Origin: Propioniciclava tarda
GTDB taxonomy: Bacteria; Actinomycetota; Actinomycetes; Propionibacteriales; Propionibacteriaceae
NCBI RefSeq assembly: GCF_900182665.1
Contig: NZ_FXTL01000001.1
Span: 310,001-374,000, forward strand
Direction: 5' to 3'
Length of the DNA stretch: 64,000 nt
The position numbers and the translations under genes were made by a program. The notes under the pieces were generated by a model. It saw only the letters and a list, made by a program, of their open reading frames with translations, did no database searches and was not told the origin of the DNA. Shown in pieces: positions 3,178-61,758 of this stretch. Positions within the stretch are counted from its first letter, which is position 1. Each line of letters opens with the position of its first letter.

Positions 3178-3729
3178 GTGGAAGCAGCACAGATCCCCGG
3201 TGAGTTGACCCGGGTTCACTTCACCGAGGCCCAGATCCAAGACCGCATCCGCGAGATCGCCGCGGAGATCGACTCCGACTACGCGGGCACGGTGCCGCTG
3301 CTGGTGGGGGTCTTGAACGGTGCGGTCATGGTGATGGCTGACCTGTCTCGTGCCATGAAGTTGCACTGCGAGCACGACTGGATGGCAGTCTCGAGCTACG
3401 GCGCCGGCACGCAGAGTTCCGGCGTGGTGCGGATTTTGAAGGACCTGAGCTCTGACATCGAGGGCCGCCACGTGATCGTCGTCGAGGACATCATCGACAC
3501 CGGCCTCACCCTGCAGTACTTGTTGCAGAACCTGTCGACGCGTCTGCCGGCGTCGCTGGAGCTGATGACGATGTTCCGAAAGCCCGAGGCTTTCAAGTGC
3601 AACGTGGTGCCGAAGTACATCGGCTACGACCTGCCGGACGAGTTCGTCGTGGGCTACGGATTGGACTACGCAGGCCAGTACCGCAACCTCCGCGATTGCG
3701 CGACTTTGAGCCCAACCGTCTACTCCTGA
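3178..3729 (+). CDS. hpt: Hypoxanthine phosphoribosyltransferase
   Basis: Purine salvage enzyme joining hypoxanthine or guanine to PRPP. The 183-residue length is normal. The PRPP-binding loop reads VVEDIIDTGLTL around residues 100-112 and the family C-terminal YGLDYAGQYRNL is present. A GTG start is chosen because it sits seven bases after a -10-like box and gives the family N-terminus. In most actinobacteria hpt is followed closely by ftsH; here about 5.3 kb of other DNA lies between them. Confidence 0.95.
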   Translation: MEAAQIPGELTRVHFTEAQIQDRIREIAAEIDSDYAGTVPLLVGVLNGAVMVMADLSRAMKLHCEHDWMAVSSYGAGTQSSGVVRILKDLSSDIEGRHVIVVEDIIDTGLTLQYLLQNLSTRLPASLELMTMFRKPEAFKCNVVPKYIGYDLPDEFVVGYGLDYAGQYRNLRDCATLSPTVYS

Positions 3730-3880: not shown

Positions 3881-5167
3881 ATGAGCCTTTCGAGAAGAGC
3901 TTTCGTCGGCCTCGCCGCGGCGTCCGTTGCCGGCGCCGGGCTCGCCGCCTGCAGCAGCCCCGCCGCCGCCCCGGCGACCACCGGCACCAGCAGCAGCGCC
4001 GCCGCACCCGCCGGCCAGCTGCCCGCCACCACGATCAAGATCCTGGCCCCGTCGTACGCCGACAGCTCCAAGGCCGACTGGGACAAGATCATCGCCGAGT
4101 TCAACAAGAAGCAGCCGAACGTCAAGGTCGAACTGCAGATCGAGGCGTGGGAGACGTTCTCCGAGAAGGTCCAGCAGCGCATCCAGGCCAAGGACTACCC
4201 GGACATCCTCAACGACAACGCCTTTGCCGCCCAAGCGTCCGCGGGCCTGCTGTACCCGATCGACGAGGTCATGAGCGCCGCGACGCTGGCGTCCATCGAG
4301 CCCGCCCTGATGAAGAACGGCGTCGGCACCGACGGCAAGACGTGGGCCGCTCCCGACATCGCGTCCGCGCGCATGATGGCCTACAACACCGACCTCTTCG
4401 CCAAGGCCGGCATCACAGCCGCGCCGAAGACGTGGGCCGAGCTTGAGGACGCCGCCAAGAAGATTGCCGCTCAGGGCGCTGCCGGCTACGGCATGCCGCT
4501 GGGCAAGGAAGAGGCCCAGGTCGAGTCGTCCCTGTGGCTGTGGGGTGCGGGCGGCGACTGGGCGTCCGGCGGCAAGCTGGTCGCCAACCAGCCGGCCACC
4601 GTCGAGGCGTTCACCGAGATGAAGAAGCTCATCGACGCCAAGGCCGTCCAGGCGGACGCGGGCGCGTCCAACCGTCAGCAGGTCGCCGACCTGTTCGACA
4701 ACGGCAAGCTCGGCATGTACGTGTCGCACTCGGGCCTGATGGGCAACACGCGCAAGAAGTTCCCGAACATCAAGTTCGATCTCGCGCCCATCCCGAGCAA
4801 GGACGGCAAGCCCGTCGCGTTCGGCGTGACCGACTTCATCCTCGCGTTCAACAACAAGGACGCGAACCGCAAGGAGGCCACCAAGCAGTTCCTCGACCTC
4901 ATGTACTCCGACGCGATGTACGAGGGCTGGTACAAGGGCACGGGCCTGCTGCCGGTCACGAAGTCGCAGATCGAGAAGGCGAAGGCGTCCGACAAGGACA
5001 ACGCCAAGTTCTACGAGGCCCTGTCGTTCGTGAAGTTCAACCCGGTCTCGGATCCCAAGTGGGACGCCCTCAAGGGCGCTCTGCAGTCGACCGCCGGCAC
5101 GATCTCCAAGGACGCCCCGGACGCCGTCGTCAAGGCCATCCAGGCCCAGCTGGACGCCGCGGGCTGA
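3881..5167 (+). CDS. Sugar ABC transporter, substrate-binding lipoprotein
   Basis: A 428-residue extracellular solute-binding protein of the maltose/oligosaccharide type. The N-terminus has a twin-arginine-like SRRAF followed by a hydrophobic stretch and lipobox GLAAC with the acylated Cys at residue 24, then an Ala/Ser/Thr-rich linker. The mature part has the periplasmic-binding-protein type 2 fold signatures (a DILNDNAFAAQ segment and a conserved W-rich hinge). It captures a sugar outside the membrane and delivers it to the two permeases downstream. No ATPase gene is adjacent, so a shared MsiK-type ATPase elsewhere is likely. The ATG follows AAGGAGG at about 3863. The exact sugar cannot be told. 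Confidence 0.9.
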   Translation: MSLSRRAFVGLAAASVAGAGLAACSSPAAAPATTGTSSSAAAPAGQLPATTIKILAPSYADSSKADWDKIIAEFNKKQPNVKVELQIEAWETFSEKVQQRIQAKDYPDILNDNAFAAQASAGLLYPIDEVMSAATLASIEPALMKNGVGTDGKTWAAPDIASARMMAYNTDLFAKAGITAAPKTWAELEDAAKKIAAQGAAGYGMPLGKEEAQVESSLWLWGAGGDWASGGKLVANQPATVEAFTEMKKLIDAKAVQADAGASNRQQVADLFDNGKLGMYVSHSGLMGNTRKKFPNIKFDLAPIPSKDGKPVAFGVTDFILAFNNKDANRKEATKQFLDLMYSDAMYEGWYKGTGLLPVTKSQIEKAKASDKDNAKFYEALSFVKFNPVSDPKWDALKGALQSTAGTISKDAPDAVVKAIQAQLDAAG

Positions 5168-5188
5168 TAGTCCAGTAGTTGAGTCCAG

Positions 5189-5223
5189 GTTCGGACGCCG
5201 ACGCCTCGCGTCGGCGTCCGAAC
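5189..5223 (+). terminator. Strong intergenic hairpin between binding protein and permease genes
   Basis: A 16-base perfect stem with a CTC loop lies 22 bases after the binding-protein stop. Both arms contain the window-wide motif (GGACGC on the left, GCGTCC on the right). Such hairpins commonly protect or attenuate messages so that the binding protein is made in excess over the permeases. Confidence 0.7.
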
Positions 5224-5379
5224 TGGCACCGGGGTGGATCGGGGACGTCGCGTCCGTCCCGCCGTCGCCGTCAGGCCCAGGGACGCCGCACGCGCGGTTC
5301 GGCGCGCGAGGCGTCCGCGGATGGGATGCTGCGGTCGAAGGCAATCGCCCCTCGGCGTCCGAGTGAACGAGAGGTACGC

Positions 5380-6300
5380 ATGAGCACAGTCGTGGCCGCA
5401 CGTCGGGCGTCCGGCTGGAAAGACACCATCACGGCGCTGCCGTGGATCGCCCCCACGCTGCTGCTGATCGCGGCGGTGGTGATCTACCCGACCATCCTGA
5501 TGTTCCAGACGGCGTTCGTGAAGTACACCCCACAAGGGGTGGAGCGCGGGCCTGCCGGGTTCGCGAACTTCAACGGGCCTGCCGGGGCGTTCACGTTCCC
5601 GACCGTGCCGTGGCCGGCGATCTGGACCAACACCGTGGTCTGGGTGGTCGTCGTGGTGCTGGCGACGCTGGTGTGCTCGCTGGCGCTGGCGCAGTTCCTC
5701 AACAAGGACTTCCCCGGACGCAAGCTGCTGCGGCTGGTCGTGATCCTGCCGTGGGCGTGTTCGGTCGTCATGACGACGACGGTGTTCAACTACGGCCTGC
5801 AGGCGGACGTCGGCGTGTTCAACCGGCTGTTCGTCGACACGGGCATCCTGCAGGCGGCGCAGGGGTTCACGAAGAACCCGGCGACGTCGTTCTGGGTGGC
5901 GGTGTTCGTGGCCGTGTACGTGTCGATCCCGTTCACGACCTACACGATCCTGGCCGGACTGCAGTCGGTGCCCGGTGACGTCATCGAGGCCGCGCACATG
6001 GACGGCGCGAACGTCATCCAGCGGTACTGGTCGATCGTGTTTCCCATGCTGCGGCCCGCGATTGCCGCGGCGATGCTGATCAACATCATCAACGTCTTCA
6101 ACTCGCTGCCGATCCTGAAGATCTTGAACGAGGCGCCCGGGTATCACACGGCGCACACGACCACGACCCTGATCTTCGAGTACAAGGTGAAGCTGGGTCC
6201 GGGTGTGGCGTCCGCGCTGTCGATCGTGAACTTCGGCTTCTGCCTGCTGATCATCGCGATCTACCTGGCCGTCGTGAAGCCCACGAAGGAGGTGCAGTGA
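5380..6300 (+). CDS. Sugar ABC transporter permease (MalF type)
   Basis: A 306-residue inner-membrane protein with six predicted membrane segments, the first starting near residue 20. The EAA loop that contacts the ATPase is visible near residues 205-220 (VIEAAHMDGAN). The ATG at 5380 is chosen over longer in-frame options because GAGAGG precedes it and the upstream codons are low-complexity and overlap the hairpin. It is the first of two permeases and pairs with the next gene to form the translocation channel for the sugar bound by the upstream lipoprotein. Confidence 0.9.
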   Translation: MSTVVAARRASGWKDTITALPWIAPTLLLIAAVVIYPTILMFQTAFVKYTPQGVERGPAGFANFNGPAGAFTFPTVPWPAIWTNTVVWVVVVVLATLVCSLALAQFLNKDFPGRKLLRLVVILPWACSVVMTTTVFNYGLQADVGVFNRLFVDTGILQAAQGFTKNPATSFWVAVFVAVYVSIPFTTYTILAGLQSVPGDVIEAAHMDGANVIQRYWSIVFPMLRPAIAAAMLINIINVFNSLPILKILNEAPGYHTAHTTTTLIFEYKVKLGPGVASALSIVNFGFCLLIIAIYLAVVKPTKEVQ

Positions 6301-7145
6301 TGGCGTACCGCGGAGGCGTCCACAAGAAGCCGAACCCGATCGCGACGCTGATCGGCGCCCTGTTCGTGCTGCTGTTCTTCTCGTTCCCGTACCTGCTGAT
6401 GGTCATTTCGTCGCTGAAGACGCGCGAGGAGATCACCAAGATCCCGCCGGAGTACTTCCCGGCCGCGCCGCAGTTCGACAACTACCTCAAGGTGTGGGCG
6501 TCGCAGGTTGATCCGGGCAACTCGCTGCTCGCGACGACCGTGATCTCGTTCGGGGCGACGCTGCTGGTGCTTTTGATCGCGACGCCGGCGGCCTACTACG
6601 TGGCGAGGTTCAAGTTCCGCGGACGGATGGTGTTCCTGTTCCTGGTGCTGATCACGCAGATGCTGCAGCCGACGGTGCTCGCAGTTGGGCTCTACCAGGA
6701 GTTCTCGCAGTGGCGTGGGTACCTGGTGTGGGTGGCCCTGATCCTGATCAACGGGGCGTTCAACCTGAGCTTCGCCGTGTGGATCATGCAGTCGTTCTTC
6801 GCGTCCGTGCCGAAGGAGATCGACGAGGCGGCGCTGTTGGACGGGCTGACGCGGGTGCAGACCCTGTTCAAGGTGTCGCTGCCGCTGGTGTGGCCGGGCA
6901 TCGTGACGGCGATCGTCTTCGTGTTCGTGAACACGTGGAACGAGTTCGCGGCGGCCTTCATCCTGGTTCAGGACTCGTCCCTGCAGCCGCTGACGGTCTC
7001 GATGCCGCGGTTCCTGGGCATGTACATCCGCGACTGGCAGCTGCTGTTCACCGTCGCCACCGTCGCGATCGTGCCGGTGGTCATCCTGTTCGCCCTGATC
7101 GAGAAGCGCCTGATCGGCGGCCTGACCGCGGGAGCCGTCAAGTAA
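6300..7145 (+). CDS. Sugar ABC transporter permease (MalG type)
   Basis: A 281-residue permease with six membrane segments and an EAA loop near residues 175-195 (EIDEAALLDG). Its ATG shares one base with the stop of the first permease (TGATG), so the two are translationally coupled, with GGAGG ten bases upstream inside the first permease. Together with the lipoprotein at 3881 it makes a carbohydrate importer of the CUT1 class lacking its own ATPase. Confidence 0.9.
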   Translation: MAYRGGVHKKPNPIATLIGALFVLLFFSFPYLLMVISSLKTREEITKIPPEYFPAAPQFDNYLKVWASQVDPGNSLLATTVISFGATLLVLLIATPAAYYVARFKFRGRMVFLFLVLITQMLQPTVLAVGLYQEFSQWRGYLVWVALILINGAFNLSFAVWIMQSFFASVPKEIDEAALLDGLTRVQTLFKVSLPLVWPGIVTAIVFVFVNTWNEFAAAFILVQDSSLQPLTVSMPRFLGMYIRDWQLLFTVATVAIVPVVILFALIEKRLIGGLTAGAVK

Positions 7146-7156
7146 CAAGGACGACT

Positions 7157-7226
7157 CGGCGCTCCCAAGAAGGTTGGACGAGCGCGGCGCTTCCCATTGG
7201 GGAGCGCGGCGCTGCCAAGAAGGTTG
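7157..7226. repeat. Direct repeat pair enclosing a hairpin after the transporter operon
   Basis: Two 20-base copies (7157-7176 and 7207-7226) differ at one base and are 50 bases apart. Between them a nine-base stem (7187-7207, loop ATT) probably ends the transporter transcript. The arrangement could be a small duplication around a terminator. Confidence 0.5.
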
Positions 7227-7313
7227 TAAGCCAGCGGACGCCTACGCGGCGGTTCCCCTCGAACCAGACGCCGGGGGCGGCCAAGGCTGCGTTCTGCTGA
7301 GCGGCGTGGGGCC

Positions 7314-7359
7314 ACTGGGTGCTGGTTGTTGCGGATAACCGGGAGCTTGAGAACCCAGT
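7314..7359 (+). repeat. Palindromic repeat, family 1, copy a
   Basis: Outer arms ACTGGGTGCT and GAACCCAGT bracket an interior with TTGTTGCGG and CCGGGAGCTTG. The right arm has one change from the family form AGCACCCAGT. Confidence 0.8.
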
Positions 7360-7466
7360 TGGGGCTGGTGAGGTCGGGCTTCCTTGTTGTTGTCAGCCTC
7401 TCGGTGCGAGTCAGGTCGACTTGTTGTCCCCGAACCGCCGGGATGTGAGACCCAACGCTGATGTTC

Positions 7467-7514
7467 GACTGGGTGCTGGTTGTTGCGGATATCCGAGAGC
7501 TTGAGCACCCAGTC
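7467..7514 (+). repeat. Palindromic repeat, family 1, copy b
   Basis: Arms GACTGGGTGCT and AGCACCCAGTC are perfect, with an inner palindrome CGGATATCCG in the loop. A structured RNA hairpin with an inner stem is expected. Confidence 0.85.
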
Positions 7515-7567
7515 TGGCGTTCGATGGGCTGGCGATGGTGTGACGGCGTGTGGGCTGTGTCCTCGGC

Positions 7568-7617
7568 TGACTGGGTGCTCGCCGTTGCGGTTCTCCGGGA
7601 GTCCGAGCACCCAGTCA
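7568..7617 (+). repeat. Palindromic repeat, family 1, copy c
   Basis: Arms TGACTGGGTGCTC and GAGCACCCAGTCA make a 13-base perfect stem. This third copy on the left has no counterpart on the right side of the cassette. Confidence 0.85.
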
Positions 7618-7748
7618 CGGGGGTCGCCTGGCGAACGGCCGACAACAGTGGTTCAGCTCCCACTCACGGACGAGTAGTTATCCACAATTTCGCCGGCCCT
7701 GACAGAATCCCGGCCTTTCCGCCCAATGTGTGGGCGGAGGGGATCAAG

Positions 7749-8726
7749 ATGAGGGAACTACCGGATATCGAGGACCAGCGAGGGTTGGTGTCCACGAGCC
7801 AACTGCGGACAGCAGGTTGGAGCCGGTCCGCGATCAGCAGATTCGTGCGCTCGCGGGGGTGGAGCCCTTTGCCCGGCGTCGTCTATGGGCATCGGACCAC
7901 ACTGGACGACGACCAGCGCGTCATCGCGGGCTGGTTGTGGGCCGGACCGGCGTCGGCCTTGACGGGTGGGTGGGGTCTCGTCCGGCACGGTCTCGCGCTA
8001 GCAGCCAGACCGGTGCTGCGCCGCTTCGTGGTCGCCGACCCGTGTCACTCACGAGTGGTCGACGATGCAGAGGTGCTCCATGTCCATCATGCGCCCACCT
8101 TCCGAAACCTAAGTGGCGTGCCAGTGGTGCCCCTTGATCGTGCCCTGATCGACTATGCGAGGGGCTTCGAAGCGACCGCCGATTCCGTTCGTGCTGCAAC
8201 CATCAGGGCGCTTCAGACAGGCCTCACCTCACCCGCTCGCCTGGAGGCGGCGTTGGGCGAAACTCGGCCTAACGGAACGCGTGGCATTCGATCGGGGCTC
8301 ATCGACTTCGAACGTGGTGCCTGGTCCGTGCCGGAGGCTCAGTTGCTGAGGATCCTGAGTCGTCGGAGGCCGCGTCTCAAGCTCCAGATGAACCCCCGAC
8401 TGGTGGACACGAGCGGCCGCCTCATCGGCGTTCCGGACTGCTACCTACCCGATCATAGGGTCGCCATTCAGGTGCATTCCTGGACGCATCATGCCGGCTT
8501 CCATGGCGCGCGTGATCAGTGGGCCGACACGGTCGATGCCGATGCGAGGTATATCCCTCACGGGATCGCGGTTCTCCCTGTGTCGCCGACGGTGCTTCGC
8601 GACCATCCCGAGCGCTTCCTGCGGCTACTCGACGGTGTGTTGTCGGCCCAGCAAGGTCGGGCCAAGGTCGACATTCGGATCGAGGTAGCCGTCGAGCCCA
8701 CTCCCTTGGCACCTCACGCCTCTTGA
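7749..8726 (+). CDS. AbiEi-like N-terminal domain plus DUF559-type endonuclease domain protein
   Basis: A 325-residue protein. The first 60 residues resemble the winged-helix domain called AbiEi antitoxin N-terminal in many actinobacterial proteins (TSQLRTAGWSRSAISRFV). The last 110 residues resemble the DUF559 fold related to very-short-patch repair nucleases, with a V-P-D motif near residue 221 and a Q-V-H motif near residue 233 in place of the more usual E-x-D/H pattern. The ATG at 7749 is preceded by GGAGGGG. The gene stands alone, flanked on both sides by direct repeats built of palindromic elements, and contains one GGACGC/GCGTCC hexamer where about ten per kilobase is usual here. This suggests recent arrival. 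Function is unknown; defence or repair is a guess from the fold. Confidence 0.75.
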   Translation: MRELPDIEDQRGLVSTSQLRTAGWSRSAISRFVRSRGWSPLPGVVYGHRTTLDDDQRVIAGWLWAGPASALTGGWGLVRHGLALAARPVLRRFVVADPCHSRVVDDAEVLHVHHAPTFRNLSGVPVVPLDRALIDYARGFEATADSVRAATIRALQTGLTSPARLEAALGETRPNGTRGIRSGLIDFERGAWSVPEAQLLRILSRRRPRLKLQMNPRLVDTSGRLIGVPDCYLPDHRVAIQVHSWTHHAGFHGARDQWADTVDADARYIPHGIAVLPVSPTVLRDHPERFLRLLDGVLSAQQGRAKVDIRIEVAVEPTPLAPHAS

Positions 8727-8756
8727 CCTCCACGCCAGCAGACTCTAAAGACGTCC

Positions 8757-8804
8757 GACTGGGTGCTGGCTGTTGCAGAGATCCGGGAGCCTGAGCACCC
8801 AGTC
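8757..8804 (+). repeat. Palindromic repeat, family 1, copy d
   Basis: Arms GACTGGGTGCT and AGCACCCAGTC are perfect. The interior differs slightly from copy a (TGTTGCAGAGATCCGGGAG). Confidence 0.85.
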
Positions 8805-8902
8805 GGGGCTGGTGAGGCCGGTGGTCTGCGCTTTGTCAGCCTCTCGGTGCTCGTCAGGTCGACTCGTCCCCGAACCGCCGGCTCGGGAACCACGCTGATG
8901 TC

Positions 8903-8950
8903 GACTGGGTGCTGGTTGTTGCGGTGATCCGGGAGCTTGAGCACCCAGTC
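8903..8950 (+). repeat. Palindromic repeat, family 1, copy e
   Basis: Arms GACTGGGTGCT and AGCACCCAGTC are perfect, with interior TTGTTGCGGTGATCCGGG. It ends about 130 bases before the ftsH start. Confidence 0.85.
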
Positions 8951-9080
8951 GTCCGTTCGATGGGGGGGCTGGCTGAACCACCCGTCAGCGCCTGCGGCAC
9001 CAAGCGAACCGGCGCCTGCGGCGTCCGATTGAGCCGGACGGTAGAGTCGGCCGGGTCGTGTCAGCAGAGCAAAGGCAGTG

Positions 9081-18025: not shown

Positions 18026-18075
18026 CGACTGAGTGCTCGATGTTTCGGCTGTCCGAAAGGTTGAGCACTCAGTCG
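18026..18075 (+). repeat. Palindromic repeat, family 1, divergent copy f
   Basis: Arms CGACTGAGTGCTC and GAGCACTCAGTCG form a 13-base perfect stem in which the family GGGT/ACCC has become GAGT/ACTC on both sides, a compensatory change. The loop has its own stem TTTCGG/CCGAAA. Paired changes argue that the fold matters. Confidence 0.75.
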
Positions 18076-28240: not shown

Positions 28241-28583
28241 TGCGCACCGACCCCACGCTGACCGACCCGTTCTGCGTGTTCCAGCTTGTCAAGCGGCATT
28301 ACGCCCGCTACACCCCGGAGGTGATCGAGCGGACCTGCGTCGGCGACGAGGCCATCGTCGCCGGCGACGCCGCCAACGACCTGCTCGGACTCGCCCTCGA
28401 CCCGAACGTCAACATCCAGGAATCCAAGGTCGGGTCCTGCGACATCGTGCCCGGACGCCGTCCGCGCGGCTCCGCGGTGGTCGAGTTGGTGGACGAGTAC
28501 CGCCGGAAGGCGGGCCTGGGATGAGCGCGGAGCAGACGGTCAGTGGGCGGTGGACCTTCACCGGGCCACGTAGAGGCGGGTGT

Positions 28584-28627
28584 CTGGGTGCTCGTTGTTG
28601 CGGTTCCCCGGGAGTGTGGGCACCCAG
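28584..28627 (+). repeat. Palindromic repeat, family 1, copy g
   Basis: Arms CTGGGTGC and GCACCCAG with interior TCGTTGTTGCGGTTCCCCGG, in the gap between the fdhA and fdhB remnants. Confidence 0.8.
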
Positions 28628-28748
28628 TCGGGCTGGGCGGGGGCCAGGTGGCTGGCGATCTGGTCGGGCTGTTGGGCTGGCCTGTGGTGGGGCTCGGGGA
28701 TTGGTTGCCGGGCCCCTGCGGAGAGCCCTGGTGGCACGCGCTCGGTGT

Positions 28749-28792
28749 CTGGGTGCTCGTGGTTGCGGGTTTCCGGGAACGTGGGCACCCAG
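28749..28792 (+). repeat. Palindromic repeat, family 1, copy h
   Basis: Arms CTGGGTGC and GCACCCAG with interior TCGTGGTTGCGGGTTTCCGG. Copies g and h are 165 bases apart in the same orientation, close to the spacing of the pairs around the DUF559 gene, but their spacer is not obviously related. Confidence 0.8.
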
Positions 28793-28816
28793 TCACGCAA
28801 TGGGGGAGGTGCTGAC

Positions 28817-61710: not shown

Positions 61711-61758
61711 GACTGGGTGCTGGTTGTTGCGGTTACCCGGGAGCTTAAGCACCCAGTC
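61711..61758 (+). repeat. Palindromic repeat, family 1, copy i
   Basis: Arms GACTGGGTGCT and AGCACCCAGTC with interior TTGTTGCGGTTACCCGGGAG, between the RidA and aldo/keto reductase genes, whose ends converge. Confidence 0.85.

Follow-up and report, generated by a model that had tools for sequence, protein, structure and literature searches.

Several described systems scatter or recognise palindromes in bacterial DNA in ways that come close to what we report here. In REP/RAYT systems (REPtrons, BIMEs, REPINs), palindromes of 20–40 bases, with a GTAG or CGTC tag, are dispersed between genes and also stand on either side of the gene for their associated protein, a Y1/HuH transposase, and the sequence of the palindrome is specific to the lineage of that gene (PMC2817692, PMC3733652). 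There are also CGTC REPs without a known transposase, dispersed palindromes that have no RAYT and whose mobiliser is an unsolved question; the five phyla in which PMC3733652 describes them exclude Actinomycetota. In the AbiE type IV toxin–antitoxin systems, AbiEi binds a pair of 23-bp inverted repeats with 3 bp between them, a site of 49 bp, and it represses its own promoter, as does Rv2827c, through binding to sets of such 23-bp repeats (PMC7319586). The sites of the nucleoid-occlusion proteins Noc (NBS, 14 bp) and SlmA (SBS) are likewise palindromes, tens of them, depleted near the terminus (PMC4726725).

How does a single AbiEi-like gene, set among palindromes in Propioniciclava tarda, compare with these? 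The unit works like a REP–RAYT system but is not one. It lies in a window of 64,000 bases, positions 310001–374000 of contig C1 in a 2.97-Mb draft genome (G000), and we put at about one in two the probability that it is a one-gene, REP–RAYT-like element in which an unrelated protein recognises and disperses its own private palindrome. Under such an arrangement, the one gene would encode a protein that joins an AbiEi-type DNA-binding domain to a PD-(D/E)XK-like nuclease domain; this protein would recognise the palindrome private to it, a gapped dyad whose two half-sites are about 22 bases long and which would mark both ends of the element; and the protein would act, or would once have acted, in trans on solitary palindromes, spreading copies through intergenic DNA, with the nuclease domain presumably taking part in that dispersal.

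The gene itself (7749–8726, on the plus strand, as are the window palindromes and spacers given here) is surrounded by five imperfect palindromes of 48 bp, three upstream and two downstream. The left composite (7313–7528) is made of palindrome 1 (7313–7360, R1 64.1 bits, its arms partly decayed), a spacer (7361–7466, which in the flank alignment resembles 8805–8902), palindrome 2 (7467–7514, R1 70.1 bits) and CGTTCGATGGG; the right composite (8757–8968) is made of palindrome 4 (8757–8804, R1 64.7 bits, 30 bases past the stop codon), a spacer (8805–8902, placed by the composite alignment), palindrome 5 (8903–8950, R1 71.0 bits) and CGTTCGATGGG once more. The original prediction, made from the letters of the window, had placed the same palindrome composite at both flanks of the gene in direct orientation, and it had the coordinates right: the two copies are 83% identical over about 210 bases, with small indels, and the direct alignment of left with right flank scores 243 (95% null, 37). 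Its layout was sound for the composites but missed the third palindrome on the left (7569–7616, R1 64.1 bits, dyad score above that of all shuffles), the closest upstream, centred about 157 bases ahead of the start codon. Elsewhere in the window, solitary dispersed copies stand at 18027–18074 (GAGTGCT subtype, R1 65.2 bits) and 61711–61758 (R1 67.0 bits), and a dispersed pair 165 bases apart stands at 28582–28629 (R1 61.2 bits) and 28747–28794 (R1 57.8 bits). Near-matches to the 11-base arm number 21 in the window versus 1.5 expected, a figure that 0 of 100 shuffles reach, and chance is excluded as the origin of the window palindromes. A separate direct repeat, CGGCGCTSCCAAGAAGGTTG, occurs twice, 50 bases apart, at 7157–7237, between the permease gene and the first palindrome.

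The composite had been offered as something that might recur in genomes; in this one it is unique to the locus of the AbiEi-like gene, but the 48-bp palindrome does occur elsewhere. A scan with a covariance model built from 27 copies finds 36 copies at 26 loci, almost all of them exactly 48 bp long, with the form CTGRGTGC(T)-N5-T-N2-CGG-N4-CCG-N2-A-N5-(A)GCACYCAG. Variation, taken as pairwise difference over 34 copies, is 0–0.17 at arm positions 3–11 and 38–46 (0.17 at the outermost arm position, and position 6/43 set apart) and 0–0.06 at T17, CGG, CCG and A32, and it rises to 0.4–0.7 in the gaps between these blocks, near the 0.68 of the flanking DNA. Position 6/43, at 0.49, is coupled (G-C in 21 copies, A-T in 13, never mixed); beyond this pair, the 34 aligned copies hold no covariation, and interior positions are mostly non-complementary (Watson–Crick in 7–13 of 34). 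Because the blocks keep their distances and the interior is largely unpaired, we read the conserved part, dyad-symmetric blocks of sequence with constant spacing, as the mark of a bound site and not of an RNA stem. In geometry, the 48-bp dyad comes close to the AbiEi site, and we therefore suppose that the protein binds its own palindrome.

Copies in this genome are mostly intergenic, many of them 25–95 bases past a stop codon, and they come in pairs and small clusters spaced 75–165 bases. The DNA around them is unrelated from locus to locus, which means that they were dispersed or had separate origins, and their variable centres are saturated, which makes them old, with no recent transposition. 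Neither a target-site duplication nor a recent insertion was seen, and this counts against a mobile element. Palindromes that have no gene beside them also undergo local tandem copying: in an array of four at C1:37669–37966 (L088:2001–2300; spacing 83/83/84 bases), three 83-base units have one 35-base spacer sequence in common; two such spacers match exactly, with 5–6 differences in each of the three palindromes between them. The genome also carries a second palindrome family, GTGTGACTTTG...CAAAGTCACAC, at three places (C9:54768, C11:6858 and C18:46968).

The window's palindrome family is absent from relatives and is found in one species only. Its exact arms are missing from 56 relatives, and a relaxed pattern does not rise above its controls in 76 genomes of the family, versus 33 places in G000; two weak look-alikes turned up, in G012 (C195) and G021 (C10). 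A plasmid or phage as the unit's vector was considered and rejected: no plasmid DNA matches the unit and no phage homologue of the gene was found, one viral contig having similar arms around a different centre.

What kind of protein is this? PADLOC calls its N-terminal half AbiEi (1.6e-12), and Pfam AbiEi_4 gives 24.7 bits, the cut-off being 25 (2.6e-5). The C-terminal half alone matches no DUF559 or MTES_1575 profile in the window protein; distant homologues match DUF559 at 0.011–0.014 and REase_MTES_1575 at 3.1e-6, with every one of these matches short of the curated cut-off. In a comparison of 12 homologues, the invariant residues are S193, E196, D230 and H248 alone, in an order that we take to be the one expected of the DUF559/MTES_1575 nuclease group, and the window protein carries the motif S-x2-E...PD...QVHS..H. 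The acidic residue of the second motif (E) is Q (QVHS) in this genus, where the predicted nuclease domain may thus have lost catalysis. A structure prediction from the single sequence reached a pLDDT of 39, too low to be of use, and an alignment profile searched against the PDB returned nothing meaningful. An addiction role, conceivable to the earlier reader, finds no toxin partner here: no AbiEii nucleotidyltransferase gene adjoins the AbiEi-like gene, whose neighbours are an ABC-transporter permease and ftsH.

If the palindromes belonged to this gene, one would look for them beside its homologues, and the window's own model is silent there. A first reading of that silence, that palindromes and gene are unlinked, was overturned by a de novo search for dyads: homologues are flanked on both sides by palindromes of different sequence. 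These are AACCGTTGTTGCACTTCAGGCGC... in G007, ATCTGTGCAATGC...GCATTGCACAGAT in G003, GGTCGGGGGCACCCT...AGGGTGCCCCCGACC in G047, GTGCACTTCGAGG... in G001, G012 and G009, and GATCTTCGTGAGGAATCCGG... around a paralogue in G000 itself (C2). When each gene's upstream flank is aligned with its own downstream flank, a score of at least 59 (a threshold picked after the scores were seen) is reached at 12 of 18 loci and in Rhodococcus ruber, or 13/19 homologues, versus 1 of 250 ordinary open reading frames of like size from these genomes (Fisher p about 8e-17); with orthologues dropped, 11/17 homologues pass (p about 1e-14). Homologues L040, L043, L045 and L050 fail, L044 and L052 have direct repeats that do not form clear palindromes, and several homologues have more repeats downstream than upstream. 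Similarity between proteins is weakly correlated with similarity between palindromes (rho 0.34, p 0.036; 0.26, p 0.095 with one orthologue removed). That the repeats belong with the gene is supported indirectly, by homologues with private repeats in the genus and as far away as Rhodococcus, by the solitary occurrence of most of these repeats elsewhere in their genomes and by two loci where relatives lack gene and repeats alike. In G009, a half-palindrome array, GTCACTCAGG, spaced about 36–41 bases, lies downstream of an AbiEi-like gene (L036:2500–2670).

The original prediction held that repeats spread without cargo, or the same gene without the repeats, would speak against a cassette. Both are found, the homologues lacking the window's repeat, and both are explained by each homologue having a repeat family of its own. 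Searching eleven genomes for eleven private palindromes together, with up to 40 candidate regions scored per genome and counts of places that are lower bounds, gives at least 54 places for the G047 palindrome in its own genome, at least about 26 for that of G012 (many matches covering one repeat half only), at least about 20 for that of G002 and at least 9 for that of G009; in G003 and G007, among the matches listed, the private repeat is found only at the gene itself. Each private type is nearly confined to the genomes that carry it. In R. ruber MSA14 (NZ_CP145323.1), the gene for homologue WP_029540190.1 has on either side a 47-bp palindrome, CCGAATGTCACAT-N4-TCGAT-variable centre-YCGA-variable-ATGTGACATTCGG, which has the layout of the window family (outer block, inner block, variable centre) in unrelated letters. 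By blastn, it occurs at 11 places in NZ_CP145323.1, a number in which a single copy may be counted on each strand; scanning 74 kb directly gives 6 full-length copies, all intergenic or overlapping a gene end, with 4/6 between convergent genes. Although labelled plasmid pmega_4, NZ_CP145323.1 (L266, L267) carries serS, glf, pks13, fadD32 and arabinosyltransferases and looks like a piece of chromosome.

Aligning the empty site in relatives had been proposed as a check, and at two loci of homologues relatives lack gene and repeats alike. The unit of G009 and G012 is missing at the orthologous place in G000 (C11), where about 160 bases without repeats run from the stop codon to the next aligned gene, and the unit of G003 is missing, with its repeats, at the orthologous place in G001. 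Because both are lacking at two orthologous loci, gene and repeats appear to come and go together, whether by gain or by loss. At the place of the intact G003 homologue, G000 (C2:214782–215339; L129, L200) has a truncated, decayed AbiEi-like homologue bracketed by GTCAGCGCAATG repeats of its own. For the unit of G001 and G012, horizontal transfer was considered and rejected, its flanks being about as similar as the gene, so that the locus is inherited vertically. The place of the window gene between hpt and ftsH, said to be normally close, is a weaker argument than it seemed: the two are 106–300 bases apart in congeners G003, G008 and G009 but 1–4 kb apart in three others, and here a three-gene sugar-transport operon (3881–7145) also intervenes, with the permease (6297–7145) as left neighbour of the AbiEi-like gene, ftsH on its other side and hpt (3178–3729) beyond the operon, 3.6 kb further left. 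The hpt–ftsH interval is variable within the genus, and the window genome gained more there than the cassette.

Set beside the known systems, the unit shares with REPs and RAYTs the short palindromes dispersed between genes, their presence around the gene of the associated protein, a sequence specific to the gene lineage and the small, spaced clusters; because two-sided repeats, dispersal, private sequences and joint presence and absence match what PMC2817692 and PMC3733652 describe, we prefer a REP–RAYT-like explanation. There are differences, too. PF01797 (Y1 transposase) has no match in G000, while control genomes do match, and the alignment of 27–34 copies contains no GTAG or CGTC tetranucleotide tag; the palindromes, at 47–66 bases, are longer than REPs and consist of conserved blocks with variable gaps; and the protein is AbiEi-like and nuclease-like. 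From the CGTC REPs that lack a RAYT, the palindromes differ in tag and size. Nor do their arms, read by eye (GACTGGG ... CCCAGTC), fit the attC core ends RYYYAAC ... GTTRRRY of integron gene cassettes. The earlier suggestion of a self-mobilising unit with ends recognised in trans is supported indirectly by the private two-sided repeats, the solitary copies and the joint absence; binding of the palindrome, its dispersal by the protein and mobility itself are inferences.

Chief among the rivals is autoregulation with dispersed operators: the protein would repress its own gene from the upstream palindromes, the dispersed copies being regulon or decoys and nothing being mobile. We think it unlikely, though several points favour it: AbiEi and Rv2827c act in this way on their own promoters, the 48-bp geometry fits, three palindromes stand upstream of the window gene and the block-wise conservation resembles that of a binding site. 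Against it, the repeats stand on both sides of the gene and, in several homologues, are more numerous downstream than upstream; dispersed copies favour stop-codon ends and convergent gaps over promoters, both in R. ruber and in G000; and at the empty sites, the repeats are gone along with the gene. AbiE itself has an adjoining AbiEii toxin gene that is missing here, and the palindromes of the window genome, unlike the AbiE repeats, lie to either side of the gene and genome-wide; the C-terminal half also differs in its resemblance to DUF559/MTES_1575 nucleases.

It is distinctly improbable that the dyads are chromosome-organising sites bound by a nucleoid or segregation protein (compare Noc, SlmA and parS), with the AbiEi-like gene either incidental or the binder, yet their distribution invites the thought. 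C1 holds 15 of the 26 loci (p 2e-7), and none lies on six contigs whose counterparts in the complete congener G001 fall in its terminus half, where 9 are expected (p 1.5e-5); with dnaA at C4:42666, C4 is the origin contig, and C1 and C4 together carry 20 loci, mostly within about 500 kb of the origin. These loci lie mostly on one chromosome arm (an approximate assignment, synteny with G001 being broken in places), however, and the sites, unlike housekeeping sites, have no counterpart in 76 further genomes of the family; elsewhere, private repeats accompany an AbiEi-like homologue and no segregation gene. The palindromes are also far longer than Noc sites, confined to a single species and linked to a mobile-looking gene. 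Ordinary terminators or mRNA-stabilising hairpins, clustered by chance, deserve still less credence. The copies do fold as RNA hairpins (z about −3 to −10), and many lie shortly past a stop codon, but no T-tract adjoins them, they match no known RNA family, block identity is conserved where pairing is not (a single pair being coupled) and the private repeats around homologues would be left unexplained. Least credible of all is excision or duplication of the cassette through homologous recombination across its composites, as the original prediction had proposed: two direct copies of about 210 bases do bracket the gene, but they are just 83% identical, no one-copy junction was seen, the flanking repeats are much shorter in most homologues and tandem duplication also affects gene-free palindromes (the C1:37669 array).

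We return, then, to a one-gene element that spreads its own palindrome, and we venture, at a little short of even odds, a broader claim: the AbiEi-nuclease-like proteins of Actinomycetota may be the first known non-HuH counterpart of RAYTs, widespread one-gene elements that would each recognise and spread a gapped palindrome of its own, 47–66 bases long, with sites that stay under selection long after dispersal. A full-text search, outside which most subscription journals lie, found no literature linking AbiEi or DUF559 proteins to dispersed palindromic repeats. For many families of dispersed bacterial palindromes, no protein that mobilises them is known. If our reading is true, many genes of Actinomycetota that annotation now lists as orphan antitoxins or hypothetical proteins would acquire a function, and one binding assay would put to the test where many intergenic palindromes come from. 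The family may also supply natural pairs of protein and palindrome, their specificities matched but diverging.
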